From Terriglobia bacterium (GTDB taxonomy: Bacteria; Acidobacteriota; Terriglobia; Bryobacterales; Bryobacteraceae): a stretch of DNA of 36,047 nt. This document shows positions 19,192-32,186 of the stretch, piece by piece. Location: assembly GCA_020073445.1 (NCBI GenBank), contig JAIQFE010000042.1, positions 1 to 36,047 of the forward strand, read 5' to 3'. A program made the translations under genes and the position numbers. Under the pieces are notes generated by a model. It did no database searches. It worked only from the letters and a program-made list of their open reading frames with translations, and was not told where the DNA came from. Every line of letters starts with the position of its first letter. Position 1 is the first letter of the stretch.

Positions 19192-19303
19192 CTGGAGCAT
19201 CTCCACGTAATTTTCCCGTCGCCGGCATCAAGACGCAGCCGCTCTCAAACGATACACATTCGTTATTGGAGTGTGGCGACGCGCCTACTGTACAATTGCC
19301 GCT

Positions 19304-20935
19304 GTGCGATACACATCTCTATTTCTGGCGGCGCTCTTCCTGTTAGCTGCGGTGCAGCACAGCGAGGCGCAACAAGGCGGGGGCAAGGGGCCAGGCGGAG
19401 CCACGGGGACGCAAAAGAGTGCTTTGCCGGCCCGCGGAGGCGGCTTGGGTGCGCCGCCTCCCTTAGGAAAGACTCAAAAGGCTGCAATCCCGAACGCGAA
19501 ACCGGTGCGCACTTGCGAGAGCCTGGCGATGGTGGCTCTGCCGAACACGACGATCGAGTCGGCGAAACTCGATGCGAAGGACCCCAACGTATGCCGGGTG
19601 ACTGCCATCACGACCCATCCACCTGCCGGAGACCAAATACGCATCTGGGTGGCGATCCCGATGTCAAATTGGAACGGCCGTTTCCTGGGAACCGGCGGCG
19701 GCGGGTTTGTCGGCGGCAGCGAAGCAGGCGTGAATCAGCCCTTGGCGCTCGGCTACGCGGGCGGAGCGACCGATACCGGACACGCGGGCGGCAGCGGCAG
19801 CTTCGCGATGGATGCGAACGGGCACCTGGACTGGCAGCTCGTGCGGGATAACGCACACGTGGGGATCCATGAGATGACCGTCACCGGCAAGGCACTGACA
19901 CAAGCGCTGTACAATGCGGCTCCGAAATATTCCTACTTCAATGGCTGTTCGACGGGCGGACGCCAGGGGTTGATGGAGGCACAGCGTTACCCGGAGGACT
20001 ACAACGGCATCGTGTCAGCTGCACCAGCAATCAACTGGCCGAAGCTGATGATGCAGTCGATCTGGAGCACGGCGGTGATGAACGCGGCCAAGAATCCGGT
20101 TCCAGCTTGCAAGCTGCAAGCAGCCACGGCGGCCGCGGTAGAAGCGTGTGATGCCATAGACGGCGTGAAAGACGGCGTGATTGAAAATCCCGCCATCTGC
20201 AACTTCGATCCTAAAACGCTTATCGGCAAGCCAGCGGGCAACTGCGGCACGGTCACGGAAGCGGATGCCGATGTGATCAAGAAGCTGTGGGAAGGGCCGC
20301 GGCGCGCGGACGGAACGTTGATCTGGCACGGGCAACCGTGGGGCGCCGACATGGTGGCACTGTCAGCAACCAGAGGGAATCCGCTTCAGCCCCTGGCTTT
20401 CACATTCACCGCAGACTGGATCCGGTTCTGGCTGCTGCAGAATCCCCAATTCGACGCAAACTCCCTGACACCCGAGCTTTTCGGGCATTTCTGGGATCAA
20501 TCGATCGAGCAATACGGGATCGTGATCGGCACGGACAATCCGGACTTGACGGTGTTTCGCGATCATGGCGGCAAGCTCGTGTTGTGGCACGGTTGGGCGG
20601 ATCAGCTGATTACGGCGCAAGGGACCATCGACTACTACAAGCGTGTGCTGGCGCAGATGGGTGGTCCCGAGAAGACCGCGCAATTCCTGCGGTTTTTCCT
20701 GGCGCCGGGGATCGGGCACTGCGGAGGTGGTCCAGGGGCAATGCCGACGGGGCAGTTGGACGCCCTGGTCTCGTGGGTGGAGGACGGCAAAGCTCCCGCA
20801 ACGCTTCCCGCGTCGAAGCAGACACCATCGGGACCTCGCACACGCATCCTCTGCCAGTATCCGCTGGTGCCGAAATACAAGGGCAAAGGCAGTACGGACG
20901 ATGCGGCAAACTTCTCATGCAGCACAGGATTCTGA
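19304..20935 (+). CDS. Secreted tannase/feruloyl esterase family hydrolase
   Basis: A 543-aa exported esterase (PF07519). I prefer the GTG at 19304 because it opens a clean signal peptide (VRYTSLFLAALFLLAAVQHSEA/Q), while the GTG at 19271 only adds eleven unlike residues. The nucleophile is GCSTGG (Ser216 in this numbering); CDAIDGVKDGVIENP is the family's Ca-binding loop; Asp is in LVLWHGWADQLI and His in GIGHCGGG. It would cleave phenolic esters such as gallate or ferulate esters outside the cytoplasm. TACAAT at 19291-19296 is 7 nt from the GTG, so the message may be leaderless. It is followed at 35 bp by a second secreted esterase. Confidence 0.92.
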   Translation: MRYTSLFLAALFLLAAVQHSEAQQGGGKGPGGATGTQKSALPARGGGLGAPPPLGKTQKAAIPNAKPVRTCESLAMVALPNTTIESAKLDAKDPNVCRVTAITTHPPAGDQIRIWVAIPMSNWNGRFLGTGGGGFVGGSEAGVNQPLALGYAGGATDTGHAGGSGSFAMDANGHLDWQLVRDNAHVGIHEMTVTGKALTQALYNAAPKYSYFNGCSTGGRQGLMEAQRYPEDYNGIVSAAPAINWPKLMMQSIWSTAVMNAAKNPVPACKLQAATAAAVEACDAIDGVKDGVIENPAICNFDPKTLIGKPAGNCGTVTEADADVIKKLWEGPRRADGTLIWHGQPWGADMVALSATRGNPLQPLAFTFTADWIRFWLLQNPQFDANSLTPELFGHFWDQSIEQYGIVIGTDNPDLTVFRDHGGKLVLWHGWADQLITAQGTIDYYKRVLAQMGGPEKTAQFLRFFLAPGIGHCGGGPGAMPTGQLDALVSWVEDGKAPATLPASKQTPSGPRTRILCQYPLVPKYKGKGSTDDAANFSCSTGF

Positions 20936-20970
20936 GATCCAAACAGTAGAGAGGAAAGGAAACGCCGATT

Positions 20971-21852
20971 ATGAAGGTCAACAAAAACCTTACGACCATC
21001 GGTTCCGTAGGGCTAGCGCTGTGTCTCACCTTCGGTTTCGTGCGGACGCCCTCCGCCTTTGGCCAAGCGCCGGAAGGGAAGCAGGCCGCAAAGGGCGGCA
21101 TTAACCGGCCACCCGATCCTCGCGTGCAGCAGCGGAAGTATCACTTCGCGGACACCAACGAAGATCTGCCCTACGCTGTGTATGTCTCCTCGAAGGTTTC
21201 GAAAGACAAGAAGAACCCGTTGATTATCGCGTTGCATGGCCTGGGTGGCGACGAGAACTCGCTGATGCGCGGCAATGCGCTGGATCTAGCGGAAGAGGGC
21301 GGCTACATTCTCGTCGGGCCTCTGGGATACAACCCGCGAGGATGGTACGGGACTCCGGTGGGAACGCCCCGCGCGAGCAAAGGAGGAGGCGCGCCCAAAG
21401 GACAGCTGAACAACGATCCGCCCAATCTGCGCGAGCTCAGCGAGAAAGACGTGATGAATGTGCTCGAACTAGTCCGCAAGGAGTTCAATGTGGATGACAA
21501 GCGCACCTACTTGATGGGCCACTCCATGGGCGGGGCAGGCACGTTGTATTTGGGCACGAAGTACGCGTCGAATTGGGCCGCCATTGCGGCGATCGCGCCG
21601 GCGGCGTTCGCCATGCAGGCAAACGCCATCACGATGCTCACGCCCGTGAAAGATGCGATGCCCATCATCATTACCCATGGCGACGCCGATACGGCGGTCC
21701 CCGTCGCGAACACCCGTCTCTGGCACGACGCGATGGTGGAGCTGAAGATGCAATACGCCTATGTCGAGATGGGCCAAGAGGATCACGGTAGCATCATCTC
21801 CAAGGGAATGCCGGACATCTTCTCGTTCTTCAAGGCACACACCAAGAGGTAG
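20971..21852 (+). CDS. Secreted alpha/beta hydrolase (esterase/PHB depolymerase-like)
   Basis: A 293-aa exported hydrolase with a signal peptide to about residue 31 (..PSAFG). The fold elements are PLIIALHGLGG (oxyanion region, 83-93), the elbow GHSMGG with Ser185, THGDADTAVP with Asp240, and His272 (EDHGS). This matches the feruloyl esterase/LpqC/PHB depolymerase-type hydrolases. A GAGAGGAAAGGA ribosome site precedes the ATG. It is co-transcribed with the tannase, so the two likely act together on plant polyphenol or cell-wall esters. Confidence 0.88.
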   Translation: MKVNKNLTTIGSVGLALCLTFGFVRTPSAFGQAPEGKQAAKGGINRPPDPRVQQRKYHFADTNEDLPYAVYVSSKVSKDKKNPLIIALHGLGGDENSLMRGNALDLAEEGGYILVGPLGYNPRGWYGTPVGTPRASKGGGAPKGQLNNDPPNLRELSEKDVMNVLELVRKEFNVDDKRTYLMGHSMGGAGTLYLGTKYASNWAAIAAIAPAAFAMQANAITMLTPVKDAMPIIITHGDADTAVPVANTRLWHDAMVELKMQYAYVEMGQEDHGSIISKGMPDIFSFFKAHTKR

Positions 21853-22173: not shown

Positions 22174-22659
22174 CTACAATCCGATCAGAATCGCGATGAT
22201 GGCGATGTGCAGAAGGCCCGAGCCCGCAAACTGCGAGGCACCCACCGTTATCGTGAGGTTCTCGACGGCTGTGCCCTCGATCTTGCCCTCAATACGTACA
22301 AGCTGGCCGACCAGCGAGGCGTTGTTCGCTTCGTTGATTGCGCCGGTGACGATGAGGTGATCGCCGTTGAGGATCGCGGACTGCAGCTGGACGTGGGCGC
22401 CAGCGCCGGTGTGAATGGTATCGCCGAACGTGGCAAACCCCGGAGAGGCTGTTGTCGCCGGAGTCATCCCCAGGGGGATCTGAACTTTCGCATCGAACTG
22501 GAGCAGCCAGTCGTTCATTGGCGCAGGGAGTTGCTGGCTCCAGACCATGCCATGCAGATAAATCACCTCCGCTTTCTGTTCCGATGCGGTCGCTTCGGGG
22601 ACGGCTGAAAGGGCGGCCAAACCGGCGCCCGCGGCGAGAAATTCTCTTCGGTTGTTCAT
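22174..22659 (-). CDS. Small Tat-signal exported protein, unknown function
   Basis: A 161-aa protein. ATG 22657-22659 is preferred over longer readings because GGAGG stands about 10 nt upstream and the N-terminus is a twin-arginine signal (NNRREFLAAGAGLAALS). The mature part (VQIPLGMTPATTASPGFATFGDTIHTGAGAHVQL..) is beta-rich with no cysteine or haem motif, and the last 15 residues are hydrophobic (LLHIAIIAILIGL). Tat export often means a cofactor is loaded or the protein folds in the cytoplasm, but no cofactor motif is visible. It is the last gene of the cytochrome cluster, 68 bp after the NapC-like gene; its role there is unknown. Confidence 0.72.
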   Translation of the reverse strand: MNNRREFLAAGAGLAALSAVPEATASEQKAEVIYLHGMVWSQQLPAPMNDWLLQFDAKVQIPLGMTPATTASPGFATFGDTIHTGAGAHVQLQSAILNGDHLIVTGAINEANNASLVGQLVRIEGKIEGTAVENLTITVGASQFAGSGLLHIAIIAILIGL

Positions 22660-22727
22660 CGTTTTGGAAACCTCCGCTAGTGAGCGGAGCGTAGAGCCGC
22701 GACTTCGAACAACGACACGGGAAACGC

Positions 22728-24155
22728 CTATTGTTTTGCGGCGCTGGAGAGGGTATCGCCCAAACCGAGCGTCTTCAGGATGGCGGGATCGGTCTCGTCG
22801 ACGGCGAGCATCTGATGGCAGGTGCTGCAATCTTGCGTGAGGGTTTTCTTACCGGCGGTGGAGTGGCCGCCATCGTGGCACCGGAAGCAGCCGGGATCGT
22901 CCATGTGCCCGAGATTGTTCGGATAGGTGGTCCAGGTTACCTTCAGATCCGGGAACACGTTGTCGCGATAAATGGCCAGCAGCGCTTGTCCGGCTAGCTG
23001 GACATCGTTCGCGCGCTTGGCCCAAATGTCACTGTACTTTTGCTGATAGAAGGCGGTGAGGCCGGAGGGGATTCTTTGCGCGGCATCGTCGTCACTCGAG
23101 TAACTTGCCTTCAACAACTCGATGCCGGTTTTCTTCACGAAAGGCAGCGTCACGGGAATCTGGCTGGACGCCAAGGCGCGATCGATGGCATGTTCGGGCG
23201 ATTCGAAGGCGTGACCCACGCGGTTATGGCAATCCACGCACTGCATTTCAAACGTTGGAAGAGCGCGGGCCGCATCGGGAGTGGTGCCGTCGGCGAGGTA
23301 AGTCTGCGTCGCACTGCCATTGCTGTACTCGACCCAGGGAATGGTCTGCCTCTTTTTGTCGGAGGCCGCGTAGCGAATGTGGACGCCCGGACCCATGTGC
23401 GCGCCATGGATGCCGCCCGCGTTCCCGCCGCCGACCATCATCATCAAGACGGTTTCGCTGCGCGTGTTGGCCTCATCGTCCTTGAAGCTGCTGTGCATGC
23501 GGAGGCGCGGGCCAATGACCTTACCGCGAGCGTGGCACTGCTCACACGTATCGGCGGAGGCGACCAGACGGTTGCTCTCCATGGCCGATTCGATGGGCCG
23601 CGGATAGTTGTTCAGCACTACTCCGATAAGCTGGCGGGTTCCGGCCATCTTCGAGGCAAGCCACCCTGTCGCGCCGGGACCGACATGGCAGGAGGCGCAA
23701 GCTACCTGCTGGTGCGGCGGCAGAAGGTGAGCCGTGAACTCAGGCTTCATGACGTGGCAGCTCTGGCCGCAGAACTGCGTGGTTTCCATGTGCTCGACGG
23801 CACGATAGGTGAGCTGGCTTCCGATAACCAGGTTCGCCATCGTCATGATGGTGAAAAACATGCCGGCGCGACGCCAGGCGGCCTTGCGGTCGACCGGCGG
23901 GTTCAGCGCCTCGGCAGCGCGGCGTCTTCCGAGCGTGATTCCGATGGGAATCAGAATCAGTCCCACAAAAAATACGATGGGGATGGCGATGAAGGTGAGC
24001 AGTCCGATATAGGGATTGCTGACATTCCCACGAATATTCGCCGGCAGCGCAAAAAGCCACGAGAAGCCGGCCAGCGTCACCAGCGCCACACCCGCCATGG
24101 TAACCCAATGGCTGGTGAGCAGGACGATTACGGGCTGCTTCTGTGGGTCGGGCAT
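22728..24155 (-). CDS. Membrane NapC/NirT-like multihaem cytochrome c (quinol dehydrogenase)
   Basis: A 475-aa membrane protein with three N-terminal TM segments (about 16-38, 49-76, 98-118), then a periplasmic cytochrome part. Haem motifs: an unusual CX3CH at 129-134 (CGQSCHVM) and five CXXCH at Cys153, 204, 306, 423 and 443, so up to six haems. The membrane-anchored NapC/NirT arrangement, as in CymA or NrfH, suggests a quinol oxidase feeding electrons to periplasmic cytochromes. It follows the tetra-domain cytochrome by 1 bp and lies in the same operon as the MtrCAB-like genes, so it is the probable inner-membrane entry point. Reverse flow cannot be excluded. Confidence 0.88.
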   Translation of the reverse strand: MPDPQKQPVIVLLTSHWVTMAGVALVTLAGFSWLFALPANIRGNVSNPYIGLLTFIAIPIVFFVGLILIPIGITLGRRRAAEALNPPVDRKAAWRRAGMFFTIMTMANLVIGSQLTYRAVEHMETTQFCGQSCHVMKPEFTAHLLPPHQQVACASCHVGPGATGWLASKMAGTRQLIGVVLNNYPRPIESAMESNRLVASADTCEQCHARGKVIGPRLRMHSSFKDDEANTRSETVLMMMVGGGNAGGIHGAHMGPGVHIRYAASDKKRQTIPWVEYSNGSATQTYLADGTTPDAARALPTFEMQCVDCHNRVGHAFESPEHAIDRALASSQIPVTLPFVKKTGIELLKASYSSDDDAAQRIPSGLTAFYQQKYSDIWAKRANDVQLAGQALLAIYRDNVFPDLKVTWTTYPNNLGHMDDPGCFRCHDGGHSTAGKKTLTQDCSTCHQMLAVDETDPAILKTLGLGDTLSSAAKQ

Positions 24156-24156
24156 C

Positions 24157-25290
24157 TTACTTAACCTTGTTCTGGCCGTTCAGGTAAGCGATCAGGTTCG
24201 CCATATCCGAGCCTCCGAAGCGCGGCCACGCGATGCCTTTGGCTTTCATTTGGTCCAGCATTTGCGGGCCATGATGCCAGAGGACCGAGACGATGGTGGC
24301 GGCGCTGAAGGATCGATCGGTGCCGGCGAGCTTGGGAGCTCCGGTCGAAGCATTGTTATGAGACGCGTCGTTATGACACGTGGCGCAGCGCTTGGCGGCG
24401 AATACGCGAGCGCCAGCCGCGGGGTTGCCCGCGTCTTGAAAAAACTGGTCGGCCCACAAGTAGCTCACGATCTCGCGCATCTCGGCCAGGCTGAGCGGCG
24501 CCGGGGCGGCGGGCATTCTGGGCTCGTGTTCCCACATCGCGACGGCGATATCGGTCAGCGTCTTGCCCTTGAGCCGCGAGGTGAGCGCGGCCTTTCCGTT
24601 ATGGCAGGCAGCGCAGCCCTTCGATTCAAATAATGCCTGGCCATTGGCTCCGGAGGTTATCTCCATGCGGGCGTTCGCATTGGGCGAGGAGGGAAGATTC
24701 CGGAGATAGACCAGCATATCCGTGAGGTCCTGCGACGTAAACTGGGGCCAGTCCAATTTCTTCTTCGCAAACTCCTGGCGCATGGTGGCGGCGTGATTCC
24801 ACAGCGCGTTCACGATCTCCAACGGCTGACCGAGGGACTCCCATTGAGCGACGGGTTTCGCTTCAGGGAGTTTCGCGTCCGTCAAGCCGTGGCATTCCGC
24901 GCAATGCTTGGACGAAAACAGGCGTTTCCCGCGCCCCGCATCGCCTAGTTTCTCAAAGAAACGCGCCGAATAGAAGTACGCGAACAGATCGGCGGCCGCC
25001 TGCTCATTGAGGTCGCCCGGACTGATGTTTCGCGTGCGCATGGCCGCCCACATAACCGGCGCGTGGTTCCACATGGTGGCGGCGAGCGACGCGGGCGTAA
25101 AATCACGATCGATGCGGCGGCCCAGGTCAGGTCCGACGGTTCCGCCCTTGCCGTTGATGCTGTGGCATTGCACGCAGGAGAGTGTTTCGAAAAGCTGCGC
25201 GCCGCGAGCGGAGTCCGCCGCGATGATGGCCGCGTGAAGGCCGCCCATGGAGAACGCCGCGAAGGAGAGAAACACGATCATCCGTTTCAT
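24157..25290 (-). CDS. Four-domain cytochrome c (tandem monohaem class I domains)
   Basis: A 377-aa exported protein (signal peptide about 1-21). Four CXXCH motifs at Cys39, 130, 226 and 302, each opening a separate class I cytochrome c fold of about 90 residues with a later W.H...M and D...YL signature, so it looks like a four-fold internal duplication. His/Met ligation would give higher potentials than the bis-His cytochromes around it. The position between the NapC-like and MtrB genes suggests a periplasmic electron shuttle. Its start overlaps the stop of the MtrB-like gene by 4 bp (ATGA). Confidence 0.87.
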   Translation of the reverse strand: MKRMIVFLSFAAFSMGGLHAAIIAADSARGAQLFETLSCVQCHSINGKGGTVGPDLGRRIDRDFTPASLAATMWNHAPVMWAAMRTRNISPGDLNEQAAADLFAYFYSARFFEKLGDAGRGKRLFSSKHCAECHGLTDAKLPEAKPVAQWESLGQPLEIVNALWNHAATMRQEFAKKKLDWPQFTSQDLTDMLVYLRNLPSSPNANARMEITSGANGQALFESKGCAACHNGKAALTSRLKGKTLTDIAVAMWEHEPRMPAAPAPLSLAEMREIVSYLWADQFFQDAGNPAAGARVFAAKRCATCHNDASHNNASTGAPKLAGTDRSFSAATIVSVLWHHGPQMLDQMKAKGIAWPRFGGSDMANLIAYLNGQNKVK

Positions 25291-27260
25291 CGGGTGAACC
25301 TCAATCCGGCGGTGACCAGATTCGTGCGGAAGCCTTCATAAAGGTAGAAGGCCTCGCCGTAGCCGTAATACCGCCAATCCGCGAACACGCTCATCTTTTT
25401 GTTGACCGGGAGCCAGAGTGTAGCGAGCGGCTGATAGTAGCTGGTCGCCCGGTTGCCCGAAGAGATGAAGAACGATCCGCCGGCCGAGAGCTTGGGCGCG
25501 ATTCCTTGAACCGCCGGGAGCTTGACGTTGAATAGAGCCGTCGCGGTGTGGGCGTTGTCGCGATATAAGGATGTTTGCGCCGTGAGCGTCTGCGGGATCA
25601 GATAGCCGATATTCGAGTGCAGCGTAGAGCGGGTATACGAACCCTGGAAGTCGAAGATCTTGCCGCCCGAAGGCGACCAGAACAGCGAGAGCGATTCCTG
25701 CTGCGACCGGTAATCGTAATTCACGCCCGGCACTGGGTTGTGATTGTCGAGCAGCGTAAAATCGGCGGTGAAATTGAGCGACGTCAAAGCCTGATAACGC
25801 GCCTGCGCGTGGACCTTTTGATAATCGTATAAGCTGGTGCGGAAGTACGAGCCTCCGCTCGATGCCGCTTCCGCGTCGGTCCGGATGGTGAGTTTCTGGA
25901 AGGGGCGGTACGTCACGCCACCGATGCCGACATTGCGGCGCAGTTTGGCTTGATCCGAGCTCATCAATCCCGCCGGTGGAAGAACCGCGTCGTTGGCTTC
26001 CCCCCATACATAACGATACCCGCCGCGCAGAGTGAGTTTCGACGTCGCGTCGTAGAAGATGTCGATCTCTTCCTGGTTGTAGTTCGTCACCAGCGAGGAT
26101 GCGAGCAGCGCGGCGATCTGTTGAGAGGCGCCGCTGCCGGCGAACGTCTGGGTCGACGCCGCGGATCCCGCGTTGTGGAGCCGATCCGTGAGCCAGGATT
26201 GGACGATGCGGACGCGGCGCAAGGGACGGATTTCCGCGCCCAGGCTTCCGCTGGTGTGGGGCAGCTTCGCCGCGGCGGAAACCAGATACTGCTGGCTAGT
26301 ATAGAACAGCGCCTGGCTCTGCAAGAACAGGTTCCCGGTAGCGGCCTGCTGATAGTGGACGTTGCTGTCAGGCTGGCTGTACAGAAATTGCCCGTACACG
26401 TCGAGCCACGGAGTCGCTTCGGCCGTAAACAGGCCTTTGCTGTAGATGCTGCTCCCGCGAACACCGTAGGTGGCGAGAAGACTGGTCAGGTCGGTTCTCT
26501 GGCCGAACACCGGCGTCGCCACGTTGCCGAAATTGAGCGAGCCGGGATTCTGGAAGACGCTCTGATCGTCTTTGAATGTCGTGCCGCCCTGCTCGAGCGT
26601 CGCGTGGAAACGGCGCAGCTCGAAACGAACGCCGCCGCGATAGAGATTGGTCTGATCGCGCAGAGTGTTGGGTACCGGAAACTCGTTGCCATCGGTTACG
26701 AACGTGGTTGCCCCGGTGCCGCTGCCGGAATCGCGATCATAGGCCAAATACGGGATGAACCAGTTGCCTGGGAACAGATCGAGCCGAAAGCTTCCGAGAT
26801 GGCGGCGCGTATCGAAGGATTGCTCGTTGAGCACGATTCCCCGCCCCAGCAAAGGGTCGGCGTAAGACGGAAGGAAGTTGAAGTAGGCGATGTCGCGATA
26901 GTCGGCGCTGAAATCGTACAGCTTGGATTTTTTCGCGTCGAGGTGAACAGTCTGGTAGGGATCGTCGCCCCAACCGTTCGCGCGCACCCGGATCTGATCG
27001 AAAGCCCGGTGCTTGGGATCGGCGAGCGTGAAATCGGCTCCGAGCATCTTGGGTCCCGAGCCCAGGTTTACGATGCTGCGGTAGGTGTCGAAGCTCCCAC
27101 CGACATCGGTGCGCCAACGATAGCCGACGTCGATTGAGCCAGTCAGCCAGGACTCACCCGAGGGAACGGGCGACGGAGTCTCGGCTGCCTGCGGCGGAGC
27201 CGGGGCTTCCTGCGCGAAAACAGGCACCACGATCAACGCGACGGTAATCAGCCGTCTCAT
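25287..27260 (-). CDS. MtrB/PioB-family outer-membrane beta-barrel porin
   Basis: A 657-aa barrel. The ATG at 27258-27260 is chosen because it gives a signal peptide (MRRLITVALIVVPVFAQ) and overlaps the upstream MtrA-like stop by 4 bp (ATGA). Early residues (ESWLTGSIDVGYRWRTDVGGSFDTYRS.VNLGSGPKMLGADFTL) and the alternating beta-strand pattern to the end match the decahaem-associated outer-membrane family (MtrB/PioB). No CXXCH is present, as expected for the barrel. In known conduits MtrB wraps MtrA so that haems span the outer membrane; the flanking decahaem genes fit that role. The last residues are FTR rather than a terminal Phe. Confidence 0.87.
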   Translation of the reverse strand: MRRLITVALIVVPVFAQEAPAPPQAAETPSPVPSGESWLTGSIDVGYRWRTDVGGSFDTYRSIVNLGSGPKMLGADFTLADPKHRAFDQIRVRANGWGDDPYQTVHLDAKKSKLYDFSADYRDIAYFNFLPSYADPLLGRGIVLNEQSFDTRRHLGSFRLDLFPGNWFIPYLAYDRDSGSGTGATTFVTDGNEFPVPNTLRDQTNLYRGGVRFELRRFHATLEQGGTTFKDDQSVFQNPGSLNFGNVATPVFGQRTDLTSLLATYGVRGSSIYSKGLFTAEATPWLDVYGQFLYSQPDSNVHYQQAATGNLFLQSQALFYTSQQYLVSAAAKLPHTSGSLGAEIRPLRRVRIVQSWLTDRLHNAGSAASTQTFAGSGASQQIAALLASSLVTNYNQEEIDIFYDATSKLTLRGGYRYVWGEANDAVLPPAGLMSSDQAKLRRNVGIGGVTYRPFQKLTIRTDAEAASSGGSYFRTSLYDYQKVHAQARYQALTSLNFTADFTLLDNHNPVPGVNYDYRSQQESLSLFWSPSGGKIFDFQGSYTRSTLHSNIGYLIPQTLTAQTSLYRDNAHTATALFNVKLPAVQGIAPKLSAGGSFFISSGNRATSYYQPLATLWLPVNKKMSVFADWRYYGYGEAFYLYEGFRTNLVTAGLRFTR

Positions 27261-28180
27261 CGCAGCAGGTTCCTGTCCACGTAACTTCCGTGAATCTTCT
27301 GATGGCACACAGTGCAGTTTTGGTAACGCGGCGAGCGCAGATCGTGAAACGACGGCGGCACGACGCCGATGGTGCCTGTGGTGTTCACTCTAGGCAGATT
27401 GGCGTGGCATTCCAGGCAGACGATGCGAACTTCCTGGCGCACCAGCATCCTGGGATTCGCCGATCCATGGGGCTCATGGCAGGACGCGCAGCCTTCGAAG
27501 CGCACCGGCCCGTGCTCGAACGTGAAGGGTCCGCGCTTGTCGCCATGGCAATTCAGGCATCCCGGCTCGTTCGCGGCGAAGGACTGCGCCATCGCCTTGC
27601 GAATGCTGCCGTGCGGATTGTGGCAATCGACGCAGCTCATCGCGCCTTCCGGCAGCTTGTGATGATTGGGCTTCTGGAACTGGGCCCAGATGTTGGTATG
27701 GCAGCTCGCACACTGTTCGTTGATCGCAACTGGCTTGCGGTTCACGAGTCCGTTGGGCCCGTTGGCGTGGACTTTGTGGCAAGACGTGCAGGAGACCTGA
27801 TCCTTCGCGTGACTGCTTTCCAGGCGCCCGACATGGGTCGGCTGATTCAGGTGGCAAGTGAGACAGATCTTGTCGGCAGCAGCCGCCACAAGCTTCGCCG
27901 GATTGCGGATCTCGGCGGCCGACGCGGTTTCCGTGTGCTTCTGGGCGGCTCCGTGGCAGGACTCGCAACCACGCCCCATCCAGCCGCGCTTCGCGTTGGT
28001 CTCGATCGCCTGGTGGGGGCTTTTCCCGAACCCGTTATAGATGTCTTCGTGGCAGATCTTGCAGGTTTCCGATCCGACGTAACCCGCGGGGAGCGCAGGA
28101 GGCGACGCGGCCGGGGTCTGCGCGCGCGTAGTCAGGCCAGCCGCGATCAGAAGAAGAACTGCCAGCTTAATACTGCGCAT
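27257..28180 (-). CDS. Decahaem c-type cytochrome, MtrA/DmsE family
   Basis: A 307-aa exported cytochrome (signal peptide 1-20). Ten CXXCH motifs at Cys40, 72, 106, 131, 157, 183, 208, 231, 255 and 289, the exact number and size of MtrA, DmsE and PioA. It is expected to lie inside the MtrB-like barrel and pass electrons between periplasm and cell surface. It overlaps the downstream MtrB-like gene by 4 bp and the upstream OmcA/MtrC-like gene by 14 bp, so the three are translated as one block. Confidence 0.94.
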   Translation of the reverse strand: MRSIKLAVLLLIAAGLTTRAQTPAASPPALPAGYVGSETCKICHEDIYNGFGKSPHQAIETNAKRGWMGRGCESCHGAAQKHTETASAAEIRNPAKLVAAAADKICLTCHLNQPTHVGRLESSHAKDQVSCTSCHKVHANGPNGLVNRKPVAINEQCASCHTNIWAQFQKPNHHKLPEGAMSCVDCHNPHGSIRKAMAQSFAANEPGCLNCHGDKRGPFTFEHGPVRFEGCASCHEPHGSANPRMLVRQEVRIVCLECHANLPRVNTTGTIGVVPPSFHDLRSPRYQNCTVCHQKIHGSYVDRNLLR

Positions 28181-30269
28181 GCACCTTATCGACCGCGAAC
28201 TCCGCCCCGGAGCTGTGGCAGACTGTGCAGGCCTCTCCGAGCGTGCTGGTGTTCGTGAGCGCGTGAGAGGCGGTGGGGATGTCGACGTGGCAACCCGTGC
28301 ATGCCGAAGCGATGGGCTGGATCGGGTTGATCGGTCCCTGCGGATCGGTCACCTGGTTGAGCCCCAACGGGAGATTCTGCTCACTGGTGTTGACGTGGCA
28401 CAGCGAGCAGTTACGCGTATCCGTCGCCGCCCCGGTGGGGCTCATCGCGGGGAAAAGCGTGCCGCTGAAATCGTTGTGCGTTCCGCCGAAGCCGACCACC
28501 ACGTAGGTGCGTTTGGACGCCTGCATGTTGATGCCGTAATGAATGCGATGCACCAGCAGGTTGAAATTGATGCCCTGCGGAGGAACCGCCTTATCGGCAG
28601 CGCTGGTGCGCCTGGCCGCATCCGTGTTGGACGGGTTGTGGCACATCACGCAATATTCCGTATTGTTGCGGAGTCCGCCATGCAGGGAAAGTGAAACGTG
28701 GCACGAATTGCAGTTGCCTAACGCCACCACTCCGCGTCGCGGTGCTAGCGGAGATCCGTCCACGGAGAAATACGCGACCTGGTTTTTAGCTCCGTACGTG
28801 ATGCTCTGCTGCTTAGGGTCGCCGGCCAGAATGACCTCGGTGCGGCGAGCCTCGACGCCAATCGCGTAGGTGCCCGTCGAGCCGGCCGGAACGGCGTGGG
28901 AAAATTTGTAGGTGCAATTGCTGTTCGCGTCGCACGTGGCTCCCAAGGCGCTTTCCGTCACGTATCCCGGTGTGGTCACGCCGAAATTGGTGTAGCCGTA
29001 ATCCGAAGTCGGGCCGGCCATGGTGAAGGAGAGCGTGCCCAGCGCCGACAGCGGAGCGGGCTTGCCAGCGCCGTCTTGCACGTTGAACGAAACCACCGGC
29101 AGGCTACCGGCCGTCCCATTCGCGACCTTCGTGATATTGACCACCAGACCCGAGAGTAAACTCGACGCTGTCGGCGGCACGTGCGCGCCCTTGATGGACG
29201 CGTCGAAATCGATTTCGCCTTGCGGGATGTGGCACGTCGCGCACTGAGTGTCGTCGAGCTGAGGTCCGCCAGGGTGATTGGCGCCGGTTGAGAAATTTAC
29301 ATCGTCATGGCATGCGCCGCAGGCCGCGCGCGAAGGATTCGTCAGATAAGCGGTCGCATGCGCGGCACCGGTGGTCTGCGAATGGCAGGTTTCACACCGC
29401 CGCGGATCGCCCGGATCGGCCGGGTACGCGACATCCGAGAAGTCAAACGTTCCGAACTGGTTGATGACCGGAATATAGGGCGTGCCGGCCTTGACGCTGG
29501 GCAGATTCTCGCCCATGTGGAGCTTGTGAAAGAACACCTTGGCATCGAGCGTCGCGCCGGTATTGGCATCGCTGGTTTGCGGCGTGTGGCACAACACGCA
29601 TAGATCCATGCCGCGGCGCGATCCGCCGTGCGCCGATAACTGATCGTGACATCCGTTACAGCTCGCCGTCTTGATGACGTCGCGGGTGCGGGTGACCGGA
29701 GCGCCGTTGGGAACAAAGTTAAACGTCGTGCTGGCGAAATTGGTCCCCAGATTGAAAATCGTCAGGTTGCGGGAGCCGTAAATGCCGATCGTATGTGTGG
29801 CGGTTCGATCGATTCCGGAAGGGGCTCTTGTATGGAACGTGTATTGATACTGGCCGGCTCCCACCTGCGTCGTTGTGCCGCCCGAATCGGCTGCCGCCTG
29901 TTGCGTGGAGGCAAGCACTTTCCCCGATTGACTACGTGTCGTGTAGGAAGTGTACTGTCCCTGATCGTTGGGGAGCACCGCGGCCACGAAGCTCAAGTTG
30001 ATGATGCCGGGCGTGGTGAGTCCCGTGGAATCCAGGGGCAGTCCCGCAGGATCAGTGAGGGTGTAAATCGTCGAGATCGTGCCGTCTGCAGTGATCTGCG
30101 CGGAATTCACCTTGATCACGAGACCTGGACGGACAAACTGGACCGTCTGATCATTCGCGAAAAACGCCTTCTCATGCGTGGAGTACGGCCGGCGAGGAGC
30201 ACTCGCCAGGCTCGCCGCGATCAGAACTACAATTGCCGCCACGCGCCATTGGGGCGCAAAGAATCTCAC
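28167..30269 (-). CDS. Decahaem OmcA/MtrC-family surface cytochrome
   Basis: A 700-aa exported cytochrome starting at GTG 30267-30269 (GGGAG 7-8 nt upstream). Signal peptide 1-24. It shows the four-domain OmcA/MtrC plan: beta domain about 40-190, pentahaem cluster with CXXCH at Cys204, 224, 292, 317 and 343, second beta domain about 370-510, pentahaem cluster at Cys520, 540, 621, 657 and 681. Ten haems in total. Cys446 and Cys452 (CX5C) in the second beta domain may form the disulfide that the family carries there. Unlike Shewanella MtrC and OmcA there is no lipobox cysteine, so how it is held at the surface is unclear. It begins the cytochrome block. Confidence 0.92.
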   Translation of the reverse strand: MRFFAPQWRVAAIVVLIAASLASAPRRPYSTHEKAFFANDQTVQFVRPGLVIKVNSAQITADGTISTIYTLTDPAGLPLDSTGLTTPGIINLSFVAAVLPNDQGQYTSYTTRSQSGKVLASTQQAAADSGGTTTQVGAGQYQYTFHTRAPSGIDRTATHTIGIYGSRNLTIFNLGTNFASTTFNFVPNGAPVTRTRDVIKTASCNGCHDQLSAHGGSRRGMDLCVLCHTPQTSDANTGATLDAKVFFHKLHMGENLPSVKAGTPYIPVINQFGTFDFSDVAYPADPGDPRRCETCHSQTTGAAHATAYLTNPSRAACGACHDDVNFSTGANHPGGPQLDDTQCATCHIPQGEIDFDASIKGAHVPPTASSLLSGLVVNITKVANGTAGSLPVVSFNVQDGAGKPAPLSALGTLSFTMAGPTSDYGYTNFGVTTPGYVTESALGATCDANSNCTYKFSHAVPAGSTGTYAIGVEARRTEVILAGDPKQQSITYGAKNQVAYFSVDGSPLAPRRGVVALGNCNSCHVSLSLHGGLRNNTEYCVMCHNPSNTDAARRTSAADKAVPPQGINFNLLVHRIHYGINMQASKRTYVVVGFGGTHNDFSGTLFPAMSPTGAATDTRNCSLCHVNTSEQNLPLGLNQVTDPQGPINPIQPIASACTGCHVDIPTASHALTNTSTLGEACTVCHSSGAEFAVDKVHAQY

Positions 30270-30397
30270 TCGGGATCTCCCTAGTCGGTATCGTACAGCA
30301 CTTTGTCAGAATCTAAAAGCAGTTTTCTCGCCGTTCTCTTGCCTGAACAAACGGCTACATGAGCTCTGCCGACTGGAAGTCCCCAGCGTCTTACCTA

Positions 30398-30409
30398 GGT
30401 GATATCACC
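30398..30409. promoter_or_regulatory. Perfect 12-bp palindrome upstream of the conduit operon
   Basis: GGTGATATCACC, a perfect palindrome 129 bp upstream of the MtrC-like start and 28 bp past the stop of the 69-aa gene. The half-site GGTGAT/ATCACC is reminiscent of CRP/FNR half-sites placed without a spacer. A candidate operator only. Confidence 0.4.
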
Positions 30410-30419
30410 CGTAACAGGC

Positions 30420-30432
30420 TGCAGCCCAGGGC
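30420..30432 (-). terminator. Short hairpin after the 69-aa gene
   Basis: CAGCCC-A-GGGCTG style stem just 5 bp beyond the stop codon of the small membrane protein. No T-run, so termination is doubtful. Confidence 0.25.
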
Positions 30433-30437
30433 TGAGA

Positions 30438-30647
30438 TCACCGCGCTTTGCGAGTGGGTTTCAAGGCTCTCGCCAAGTCCTCCAGGAACCGGAAGACTTT
30501 TTGATCCTCTAACTGAAGACCGAGAATAGTCTCGCCGACCAGGAGAATGAACACGAACGGTGCCGGCGGAACACCAAAATAACGGGCCGCCAGAATGACG
30601 GCGGCAAAAACGCCAATCGAAATAGGAATGTAGTGTTTCAGGTCCAT
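30438..30647 (-). CDS. Small membrane protein (69 aa)
   Basis: A 69-residue protein with two hydrophobic segments (about 7-21 and 28-40) and a basic tail (LARALKPTRKAR). The start is firm: AGAGGAGG stands 5 nt before ATG. It lies 41 bp after the DUF6152 gene and 168 bp before the MtrC-like gene, same strand. I do not recognise a family; a role in membrane assembly of the conduit is possible but unsupported. Confidence 0.7.
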   Translation of the reverse strand: MDLKHYIPISIGVFAAVILAARYFGVPPAPFVFILLVGETILGLQLEDQKVFRFLEDLARALKPTRKAR

Positions 30648-30688
30648 TTGAGCCTCCTCTTACTGTATGAACGAGCCGTGTGAACGAT

Positions 30689-31093
30689 CTACTTCGCCTC
30701 ACCACCCTGGGAGGATGCGCCCATCACCTGGGTTCCATCCGCCAAGGTAATCTTCCTTGCGTTAACAAGCTTGGTTCCATCCTTCGCGAGCGAGCCCGTG
30801 ACGGTCACCACGTCGCCCTTCTTCAGCGAGTTCCGGGTCCATCCCTCGTGCATCAGCCCGTTGGGACTGCCGAGCTCGAATTCCCAATTCGCGACCACGC
30901 CTTTGTCGTCCTTGACGTCGACATAAAAACGGGCGTGCGGGTTCATCCACTCGACCTTGGTGACGGTTCCACTGAGTGTCACCGGCTTGGTCGCGTCGTA
31001 TTCCGCTGCGAAGGAATGGTGCGGAAGGGCCGGCACGCACGTCAGTGCTAAGCCTGCGCTTACTGCGAAAACGTTCAACAACGTTTTTCTCAT
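30689..31093 (-). CDS. DUF6152 family exported protein
   Basis: A 134-aa protein, ATG 31091-31093 (an upstream in-frame ATG at 31117 would add eight residues and spoil the signal peptide). Signal peptide to about 24 (..CVPALP). The rest (HHSFAAEYDATKPVTLSGTVTKVEWMNPHARFYVDVKDD..NWEFELGSPNGLMHEGWTRNSLKKGDVVTVTGSLAKDGT) is the DUF6152 OB-like family, abundant in Acidobacteria. The function is unknown. It heads the minus-strand run that leads to the cytochrome genes, so it may be co-transcribed with them. Confidence 0.82.
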   Translation of the reverse strand: MRKTLLNVFAVSAGLALTCVPALPHHSFAAEYDATKPVTLSGTVTKVEWMNPHARFYVDVKDDKGVVANWEFELGSPNGLMHEGWTRNSLKKGDVVTVTGSLAKDGTKLVNARKITLADGTQVMGASSQGGEAK

Positions 31094-31261: not shown

Positions 31262-32041
31262 TTAGCAGGCTTGGCTGGAATGGATTCCGGCCGACCGGAA
31301 GACCTTGGCGATCTTCTGCACCGCCGTCTTGTGGATCTGCGAAGTGCGGCTCTGGTGGACGCCGAAGATCTCGCTGATTTCGGTCATCGAAGTATCGTTG
31401 TGGTAGTAGAGGGTCAGCATCTGCCGCTCGCGCTCGGACAGGGTCTGCATCGCGCCCTGAAGCATCCCGAGGATTTGGTTGCGGGCGCACAAAGTATCGG
31501 GCCGGTTCTCCGCTTTGTCCGGAAACTCCATAGGTGCGGACTCTTCGGGATCACGGGAATTCGACGCGGCCGACACGAACTCGATCCGTAGACCGATCAT
31601 CATTTGACGCCAGTCGTCCAGGTCCATTCCCATCCTGTCCGCGATCTCGGATTCCGCAGGAGCGCGCTGCAACTCGGCAGAAAGTTCGCGCGTCACTTCC
31701 TCCACGCGACGATGGCGGCGGCGAGTGTCTCGTGAAGCCCAGTCCTGCTGGCGCAGACTGTCCAGAATGGCGCCCCTGATCCGATGCTTCGCGTACGCAC
31801 CGAAGGCGACCTTGTCCCTGGAATCAAACTTCTTCATGGCATCGAGCAAACCGATCGTGCCAGCCTGAATCAAGTCGTCGAGATCCACATGTTCCGGCAG
31901 CTTCCGGCTGACATGCACCGCGATGGCCCTGACCAAGGGCAAATGCTCCAGAACGAGATCGTTCTGCGGGGTCTCCCTGGGAAACGCGCCAAAGGCTTTG
32001 ACGCTAATCGCATCGAATCTAACTTCTGCTTGTGCCGCCAT
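31262..32041 (-). CDS. RNA polymerase sigma factor, FliA/WhiG type
   Basis: A 259-aa group 3 sigma factor. ATG 32039-32041 is chosen for normal length; a longer frame reaches 32128. Region 2 is LPLVRAIAVHVSRKLPEHVDLDDLIQAGTIGLLDAMKKFD, region 3 includes ELSAELQRAPAESEIADRMGM, and region 4 is LSERERQMLTLYYHNDTSMTEISEIFGVHQSRTSQIHKTAVQKIAK. No flagellar genes are nearby, so its regulon is unclear. It stands 168 bp upstream of the DUF6152 gene on the same strand, so it could control the electron-transfer cluster; this is inference. Confidence 0.9.
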   Translation of the reverse strand: MAAQAEVRFDAISVKAFGAFPRETPQNDLVLEHLPLVRAIAVHVSRKLPEHVDLDDLIQAGTIGLLDAMKKFDSRDKVAFGAYAKHRIRGAILDSLRQQDWASRDTRRRHRRVEEVTRELSAELQRAPAESEIADRMGMDLDDWRQMMIGLRIEFVSAASNSRDPEESAPMEFPDKAENRPDTLCARNQILGMLQGAMQTLSERERQMLTLYYHNDTSMTEISEIFGVHQSRTSQIHKTAVQKIAKVFRSAGIHSSQAC

Positions 32042-32186
32042 GCCTGGTAGTAAGGCACGTGGCTGGCCGCAGTAAGCCACTGATTCTACAAGACTGAGGC
32101 GGCTGGATGGCGTCCAGATTCGAAACACGGGTTGCAGGCTGAAACCTTCGGACCGAGCCGTGCCGTCGGCCCCGGCCCGTGAACGG

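Follow-up and report, generated by a model that had tools for sequence, protein, structure and literature searches.

Gene content and layout of the locus

The stretch of DNA considered here is one whole contig (JAIQFE010000042.1; 36,047 bases, hereafter the window) from a genome of the Bryobacteraceae (Acidobacteriota) that comprises 6.58 Mb in 102 contigs and is 95.8% complete. It carries a block of five consecutive minus-strand genes, running from 30269 down to 22728 in the order MtrC-MtrA-barrel-tetrahaem cytochrome-ImcH-like protein, which looks like the whole electron wire of a soil-type Acidobacterium, from the inner membrane to the cell surface. The genes are as follows (aa, amino acids):

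28167..30269, minus strand: MtrC, a decahaem cytochrome of the OmcA/MtrC family (700 aa, GTG start; TIGR03507, 10 CX2CH motifs)
27257..28180, minus strand: MtrA, a decahaem cytochrome of the DmsE family (307 aa; TIGR03508, 10 CX2CH motifs)
25287..27260, minus strand: MtrB-like outer-membrane beta-barrel (657 aa from ATG; assigned by predicted fold)
24157..25290, minus strand: tetrahaem cytochrome with four class I cytochrome c domains, predicted to be periplasmic (PF00034, PF13442, 4 CX2CH motifs)
22728..24155, minus strand: ImcH-like (NapC-like) hexahaem protein, a predicted inner-membrane quinol oxidoreductase (PF03264, one CX3CH and five CX2CH motifs)

From MtrC to the ImcH-like protein, the genes encode 10, 10, 0, 4 and 6 haem motifs, 30 in sum. 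These open reading frames (ORFs) and counts agree with the first-pass annotation of this DNA, which had described a decahaem MtrC-like protein, a decahaem MtrA-like protein, a barrel, a four-domain cytochrome c and a NapC-like hexahaem cytochrome with about 30 haem sites counted by hand. A chance origin of the motifs is excluded, since a six-frame count over the whole window gives 32 CX2CH motifs, 29 of which fall within the block. The same annotation had listed five junctions overlapping by 14 base pairs (bp) or less, whereas the ORF coordinates give four tight junctions: overlaps of 14 bp (MtrC/MtrA), 4 bp (MtrA/barrel, with ATG 27260 as the barrel start) and 4 bp (barrel/tetrahaem cytochrome), followed by a gap of 1 bp (tetrahaem cytochrome/ImcH-like). 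The alternative barrel start, GTG 27308, gives 673 aa and a 52 bp overlap with MtrA; ATG 27260 yields a signal peptide. A promoter and terminator scan returned no sigma-70-like site, and terminators no more than at chance level.

The decahaem cytochromes MtrC and MtrA

Both decahaem cytochromes pass the family profiles against which the first-pass annotation had proposed to check them, MtrC with 450.6 bits for TIGR03507 (cut-off 209.3) and MtrA with 255 bits for TIGR03508 (cut-off 192.2). Among sequences of the Protein Data Bank (PDB), MtrC matches MtrF (1.1e-27), OmcA (9.2e-13) and the MtrC of 6r2q (4.2e-8), while MtrA matches chain 6r2q_A at E 9.6e-36 over residues 36-300 (this chain is labelled 'Cystathionine beta-synthase' in the sequence table, and the fold search gives entry 6r2q as the Mtr complex). 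No second MtrC or MtrA over cut-off was found in the host genome. The mtrC, mtrA and mtrB-like genes are adjacent and overlapping, and their clustering is retained in relatives.

The relatives come from a scan of genome contigs with the barrel alignment, which gave 147 confirmed places; the best 80 are the named loci, counts from which are lower bounds as many of the contigs are short. MtrC of Shewanella is a lipoprotein, whereas the MtrC of the window has a Sec-type signal with no Cys ahead of haem 1 and hence no lipobox. A lipobox-like pattern occurs in 3/48 MtrC proteins of the named loci and a Cys within the 55 residues examined in 10/48 (68 named loci with an MtrC ORF, minus 8 with ORFs under 600 aa and 12 lacking the search motif). 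Since neither this MtrC nor most of its relatives show a lipobox, the protein is probably held by MtrAB and not by lipid. The host genome encodes GspD (the type II secretin) over cut-off, which would allow secretion of MtrC by the type II route, as in Shewanella.

The outer-membrane barrel

The window barrel has no Pfam or NCBIfam match at E 0.1 and does not reach the curated MtrB/PioB cut-offs (TIGR03509, PF11854); TIGR03509 has no match in the host genome even at E 10, and neither the barrel protein nor its profile matches PDB sequences at E 10. As sequence and profile searches failed, the barrel was examined instead through an alignment of orthologues and through its predicted structure, which was compared with known folds. 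Among 52 aligned relatives (E <= 0.1), PF11854 matches 12 (best 4e-8) and TIGR03509 four (best 3e-5); for the 20 close orthologues, the window's included, the corresponding counts at E <= 0.01 are 3/20 and 1/20. The AlphaFold2 model of the barrel (pLDDT 88.4, pTM 0.78, 27 strands) finds the MtrB chain 6r2q_B as its top Foldseek match (E 2.2e-15, TM 0.68/0.69). The runner-up stands at E 4e-10 and TM 0.39, the highest other TM among the 50 matches listed is 0.48, and the matches after 6r2q_B are mostly TonB-dependent receptors at E 4e-10 or weaker. Further, in a second set of 53 related loci (24 of which are the same places as named loci), MtrA adjoins the barrel relative in 53/53, including 13 distant loci (L081-L093).

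Failure of the MtrB profile is what the first-pass annotation had named as evidence against its own proposal of an MtrCAB-like conduit, and for the window barrel that failure was found. It is outweighed by the MtrB_PioB matches of the relatives together with the predicted fold, on which grounds the barrel is taken as a probable diverged MtrB; with the TIGR03507 and TIGR03508 scores, this fold supports the conduit proposed.

The distant loci L081-L093 represent a second MtrA-barrel lineage that lacks MtrC and occurs in the host's family and in related ones, with barrels 23-33% identical to the window's. Such pairs, and the name DmsE of the MtrA family, would suit a dimethyl sulfoxide (DMSO)-type extracellular reductase, in which MtrA and the barrel feed a molybdenum enzyme at the surface (the known system of this type being DmsEF with DmsAB). 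In the Pfam and NCBIfam searches, however, molybdenum enzyme families were not matched by any of the block's genes, and an MtrC that clears its family threshold by a wide margin already fills the place of such an enzyme at the surface, making this explanation highly improbable.

The periplasmic cytochrome and the inner-membrane protein

The tetrahaem cytochrome matches PF00034 (3.6e-29, three stretches) and PF13442 (5.6e-25, four stretches), with one haem per domain, a WxHxxxM motif in all four domains and an N-terminal hydrophobic signal. Its class I character sets it apart from the periplasmic carrier of Shewanella and likens it to MtoD, the class I carrier of the MtoAB-type system. The gene lies directly downstream of mtrB and encodes four haem motifs, in accordance with the tetrahaem criterion of Group 5 of Baker 2022 (PMC8805035).

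The available text of Zhong & Shi 2018 (PMC6295460) characterises ImcH homologues as having three helices, with an atypical CX3CH beside them, and 5-9 CX2CH motifs. The last protein of the block carries these marks, and is named ImcH-like from that published description: its 475 aa include a CGQSCH (CX3CH) at 129 followed by five CX2CH, and the AlphaFold2 model (moderate confidence, mean pLDDT 75.8) places helices at 17-41, 48-82 and 90-123 before the haem domain, the first two of which alone were flagged by a simple hydropathy scan. PF03264 scores 34.5 bits (cut-off 24.1), whereas TIGR03153 (NrfH), at 54.9 bits, lies under its cut-off of 134.2. NrfH is the sole match among PDB sequences at E 0.1 (1.8e-5), and the fold search with the model likewise ranks NrfH chains first (E 0.03-0.05). 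The Cys and His of the haem motifs are kept in 29/29 aligned ImcH-like rows, the window's included. The inner-membrane and periplasmic partners that the first-pass annotation had assigned to the conduit are present in the block as the ImcH-like and tetrahaem genes, and constitute the new part of the finding.

Distribution and linkage of the ImcH-like gene with MtrC

Of the 80 named loci, 78 are labelled Acidobacteria or a subgroup thereof (many Bryobacteraceae, Bryobacterales or Solibacter); the other two, L102 (Nevskia soli) and L172 (Candidatus Sumerlaeaceae), are taken as mislabelled bins. Beside the barrel and on its strand, MtrA is found in 76/80, MtrC in 68/80, the tetrahaem cytochrome in 57/80 and the ImcH-like gene in 24/80. 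The commonest orders are MtrC-MtrA-barrel-tetrahaem (34 loci), MtrC-MtrA-barrel with no tetrahaem gene (14) and the window order with the ImcH-like gene last (13), so that the comparison of synteny suggested at first pass shows the five-gene order recurring in other Acidobacteriota.

TIGR03507 is over cut-off in 58/396 genomes sampled across the phylum. In 151 genomes (the host and 150 relatives; E <= 0.001), MtrC has a match in 73 and the ImcH-like protein in 84. Within the family (91 genomes), ImcH-like matches occur in 59/64 genomes with MtrC against 4/27 without, and within the host's genus in 8/9 against 0/14; the respective Fisher values of 6e-13 and 2e-5 overstate independence, since the genomes are related. 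Outside the family the association is weak (5/7 with MtrC, 15/53 without).

In a quick-method tree of ImcH-like proteins, 29 of them linked and 20 separate ('linked' denoting a place within the fetched locus; the linked row L148 is on the opposite strand), linkage changes six times by parsimony against a mean of 15.8 with shuffled labels, at least four changes being forced by starred branches. The window protein falls in a clade of 19 rows, 17 of them linked, with SH-aLRT support of 100. For the separate copies (L181-L200), a CbcL-like ORF lies nearby in 17/20 loci, mostly directly adjoining. In the reference CbcL-like protein, 9 haem motifs are combined with a cytochrome b561 domain; CbcL is another quinol gate of Geobacter in the available text of PMC6295460. 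No CbcL-like match was found in the host genome. The CbcL-like gene also adjoins the cluster's ImcH-like gene at L103 and L104, and L167, L170 and L171 carry MtrA, barrel, tetrahaem, CbcL-like and ImcH-like genes consecutively on one strand. As a separate observation, L187 and L198 have a 15- or 19-haem ORF between the ImcH-like and CbcL-like genes.

These patterns bear on whether the ImcH-like protein belongs to the conduit at all. It might be a mere neighbour that serves general periplasmic respiration, with quinol electrons reaching MtrA of an outward conduit by another way; the ImcH-like genes of 15/53 MtrC-lacking relatives outside the family, and the proximity of most separate copies to a CbcL-like gene, would fit such a role. 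Nevertheless, this is improbable, as the presence of the gene closely follows that of MtrC within the family, its linkage has changed several times on the tree, and the spacing in the window is 1 bp.

Proposed pathway and direction of electron flow

The block is best explained as an MtrCAB-type conduit across the outer membrane with its own ImcH-like entry gate, carrying electrons outward to an external acceptor (probability about 0.7). The proteins, if produced and assembled, would act in the following order: quinol, probably menaquinol, would be oxidised in the inner membrane by the ImcH-like hexahaem protein, which would hand electrons over to the periplasmic tetrahaem class I cytochrome; from there they would reach MtrA inside the MtrB-like barrel and then MtrC at the cell surface, which would reduce an external acceptor, for example Fe(III) minerals or humic matter, when oxygen is short.

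The first-pass annotation had proposed exchange with an external acceptor or donor, leaving the direction open; the exchange stands, and the outward direction is the better supported. Flow could instead run inward as in MtoAB/PioAB, with Fe(II) or some other external donor supplying MtrC and MtrA, and a terminal oxidase receiving the electrons from the tetrahaem cytochrome. Class I His/Met haems are usually of high potential, so that the carrier would also suit inward flow, and the host genome has three COX1-type oxidases. Further, the MtrAB homologues PioAB run inward in the text available from Baker 2022 (PMC8805035). On the other side, the host genome has no match to the RuBisCO large subunit, the sole carbon-fixation marker searched, and ImcH homologues have so far been implicated in quinol oxidation only, going by the accessible text of Zhong & Shi 2018 (PMC6295460). 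Taken with the aerobic respiratory background, this literature record and the absent RuBisCO match favour the outward direction, and inward flow is considered unlikely.

Apart from the potential of the class I haems, several observations weigh against an outward conduit with its own gate. The window barrel fails both MtrB/PioB profiles; MtrC is without a lipobox that would account for its anchoring; linkage is dispensable, with 56/80 named loci being without a same-strand ImcH-like gene (contig ends included); 5/64 MtrC-bearing genomes of the family have no ImcH-like match; and the separate ImcH-like copies keep company with CbcL-like genes.

Flanking genes

Three small genes adjoin the block:

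22174..22659, minus strand: small protein with a Tat-like signal (PF10518 at 19.4 bits, under the cut-off of 22.7)
30438..30647, minus strand: 69-aa hydrophobic protein (no Pfam or NCBIfam family match)
30689..31093, minus strand: DUF6152 protein (PF19649, 1.2e-29, searched from 31117)

The gap between the ImcH-like and Tat-signal genes is 68 bp, and the 69-aa gene is separated from MtrC by 168 bp and from the DUF6152 gene by 41 bp. At E <= 1e-4, tblastn found none of the three proteins on either strand of the 80 named and 53 further related loci (several of them short). A tight eight-gene operon was therefore rejected, as these genes do not travel with the conduit. The eight-gene unit of the first-pass annotation, with its two small unknown proteins, is thereby reduced to a conserved unit of the five cytochrome and barrel genes, since the three flanking genes are unmatched in related loci.

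A gene for a FliA/WhiG-type sigma factor (31262-32128), upstream of the operon, was considered as a regulator; it has a weak match (27% identity, opposite strand) in one related place (L064 = L161). Downstream of the operon and on the other strand (19271-21852, plus), a tannase/feruloyl esterase gene is followed by an alpha/beta hydrolase gene, a pair for plant phenolic degradation adjoining the conduit.

Variants in relatives

The connection between gate and conduit varies among relatives. At L074 (9811-13305, minus strand; genome G098, of the same order as the host, on a 500 kb contig), one frame of 1164 aa with 28 motifs joins an ImcH-like part (6), 12 c7-type motifs, a hydrophobic segment and MtrA (10). 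A simple frameshift is disfavoured, because the locus has zero N and the third-position G+C is even along the frame; from the last motif of the 12-haem part to the hydrophobic segment there is no in-frame ATG, GTG or TTG, the first being a TTG inside the segment. The fusion is uncorroborated, with one genome of its genus compared. At L076 (10817-13450, minus strand) a fusion of 877 aa and 18 motifs covers the ImcH-like protein and the 12-haem extension but stops short of MtrA, whose own gene follows in another frame with an overlap of 11 bp. The 11-haem cytochromes encoded after the operon at L045 (1692-2801, minus strand) and L049 (10020-11237, plus strand), each with a C-terminal hydrophobic segment, are possibly an alternative periplasmic wire. 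Variation is also seen in MtrC: two adjacent mtrC genes lie upstream of mtrA at L104, L125 and L151, and in another Acidobacteriota genome a 1966-aa open frame (G175:C1:353104-358722) holds two full OmcA/MtrC matches in tandem.

A tentative extension of the outward reading, rather doubtful as a whole, is that Bryobacterales carry a self-contained hybrid export cassette, in which a Geobacter-type ImcH gate is hard-wired to a Shewanella-type MtrCAB through an exchangeable periplasmic wire. The wire might be the four-domain class I cytochrome in the window, supplemented in some relatives by 9- to 11-haem proteins; in others it might be a 12-haem stretch attached covalently to the gate, and the extreme might be the unbroken 28-haem frame of L074, from the quinol site into MtrA. 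Diffusing cytochromes are usually assumed to bridge the periplasmic gap; if the cassette were real, some of these bacteria would bridge it with a fixed wire instead.

Relation to known systems and implications

The conduit belongs to a known Acidobacterial group, and the ImcH-like gate within the operon is its new part. The available portion of Baker 2022 (PMC8805035) places Group 5 mtrCAB in Acidobacteriia including Bryobacterales, with a tetrahaem gene below mtrB. The window shares with that description its Bryobacterales host, the order mtrC-mtrA-mtrB and a periplasmic tetrahaem cytochrome directly after mtrB. The same portion reports no putative inner-membrane quinone oxidoreductase near Group 5 mtrCAB and no mtrC duplicates, whereas here the ImcH-like gene is the fifth, and some relatives (named above) have two adjacent mtrC. 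The accessible text of Zhong & Shi 2018 (PMC6295460) likewise reports no mtrAB or mtoAB adjoining imcH. Both statements are changed, since the ImcH-like gene sits in the mtrCAB operon here and in relatives. A 2025 study of Desulfobacterota (PMC12133095) describes ImcH, CbcL and MtrCAB in one bacterium, the text consulted not placing ImcH in the mtr operon, and the openly accessible literature searched contained no report of an ImcH-mtrCAB link.

Compared with MtrCAB/CymA of Shewanella, the MtrC and MtrA families and the MtrB fold are shared, but an ImcH-like protein of three helices and six haems serves here as the gate in place of the tetrahaem CymA (described in the available text of PMC6295460). 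By the description of Geobacter ImcH in that text, the likeness lies in three N-terminal helices, a neighbouring atypical CX3CH, at least five CX2CH and a NapC/NirT-like core, while the window protein differs in having six haem motifs instead of seven and in lying inside an mtrCAB operon. With MtoAB/PioAB the system shares an MtrA/MtrB-type core, and differs in the presence of MtrC and the lack of a RuBisCO match in the genome.

As most close orthologues of the barrel go unrecognised by the standard MtrB profiles, surveys that require an MtrB profile match would undercount the trait. MtrC is present in 64/91 sampled genomes of the family, against five Acidobacteriia hits in the text available from Baker 2022 (PMC8805035); newer genomes explain part of this gap. 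The record titles of the named loci include peat bog, palsa, fen, lake, groundwater and soil bins, and Acidobacteria of Arctic peat were earlier proposed as iron reducers from decahaem genes (PMC3669403, available text), while the role of these bacteria in iron and humic cycling has been little tested. For Group 5, an inner-membrane partner had been reported as missing; the operon provides one, joins a Shewanella-like outer-membrane conduit to a Geobacter-like inner-membrane entry gate as a hybrid, and makes a path from quinol to the cell surface testable with five genes.

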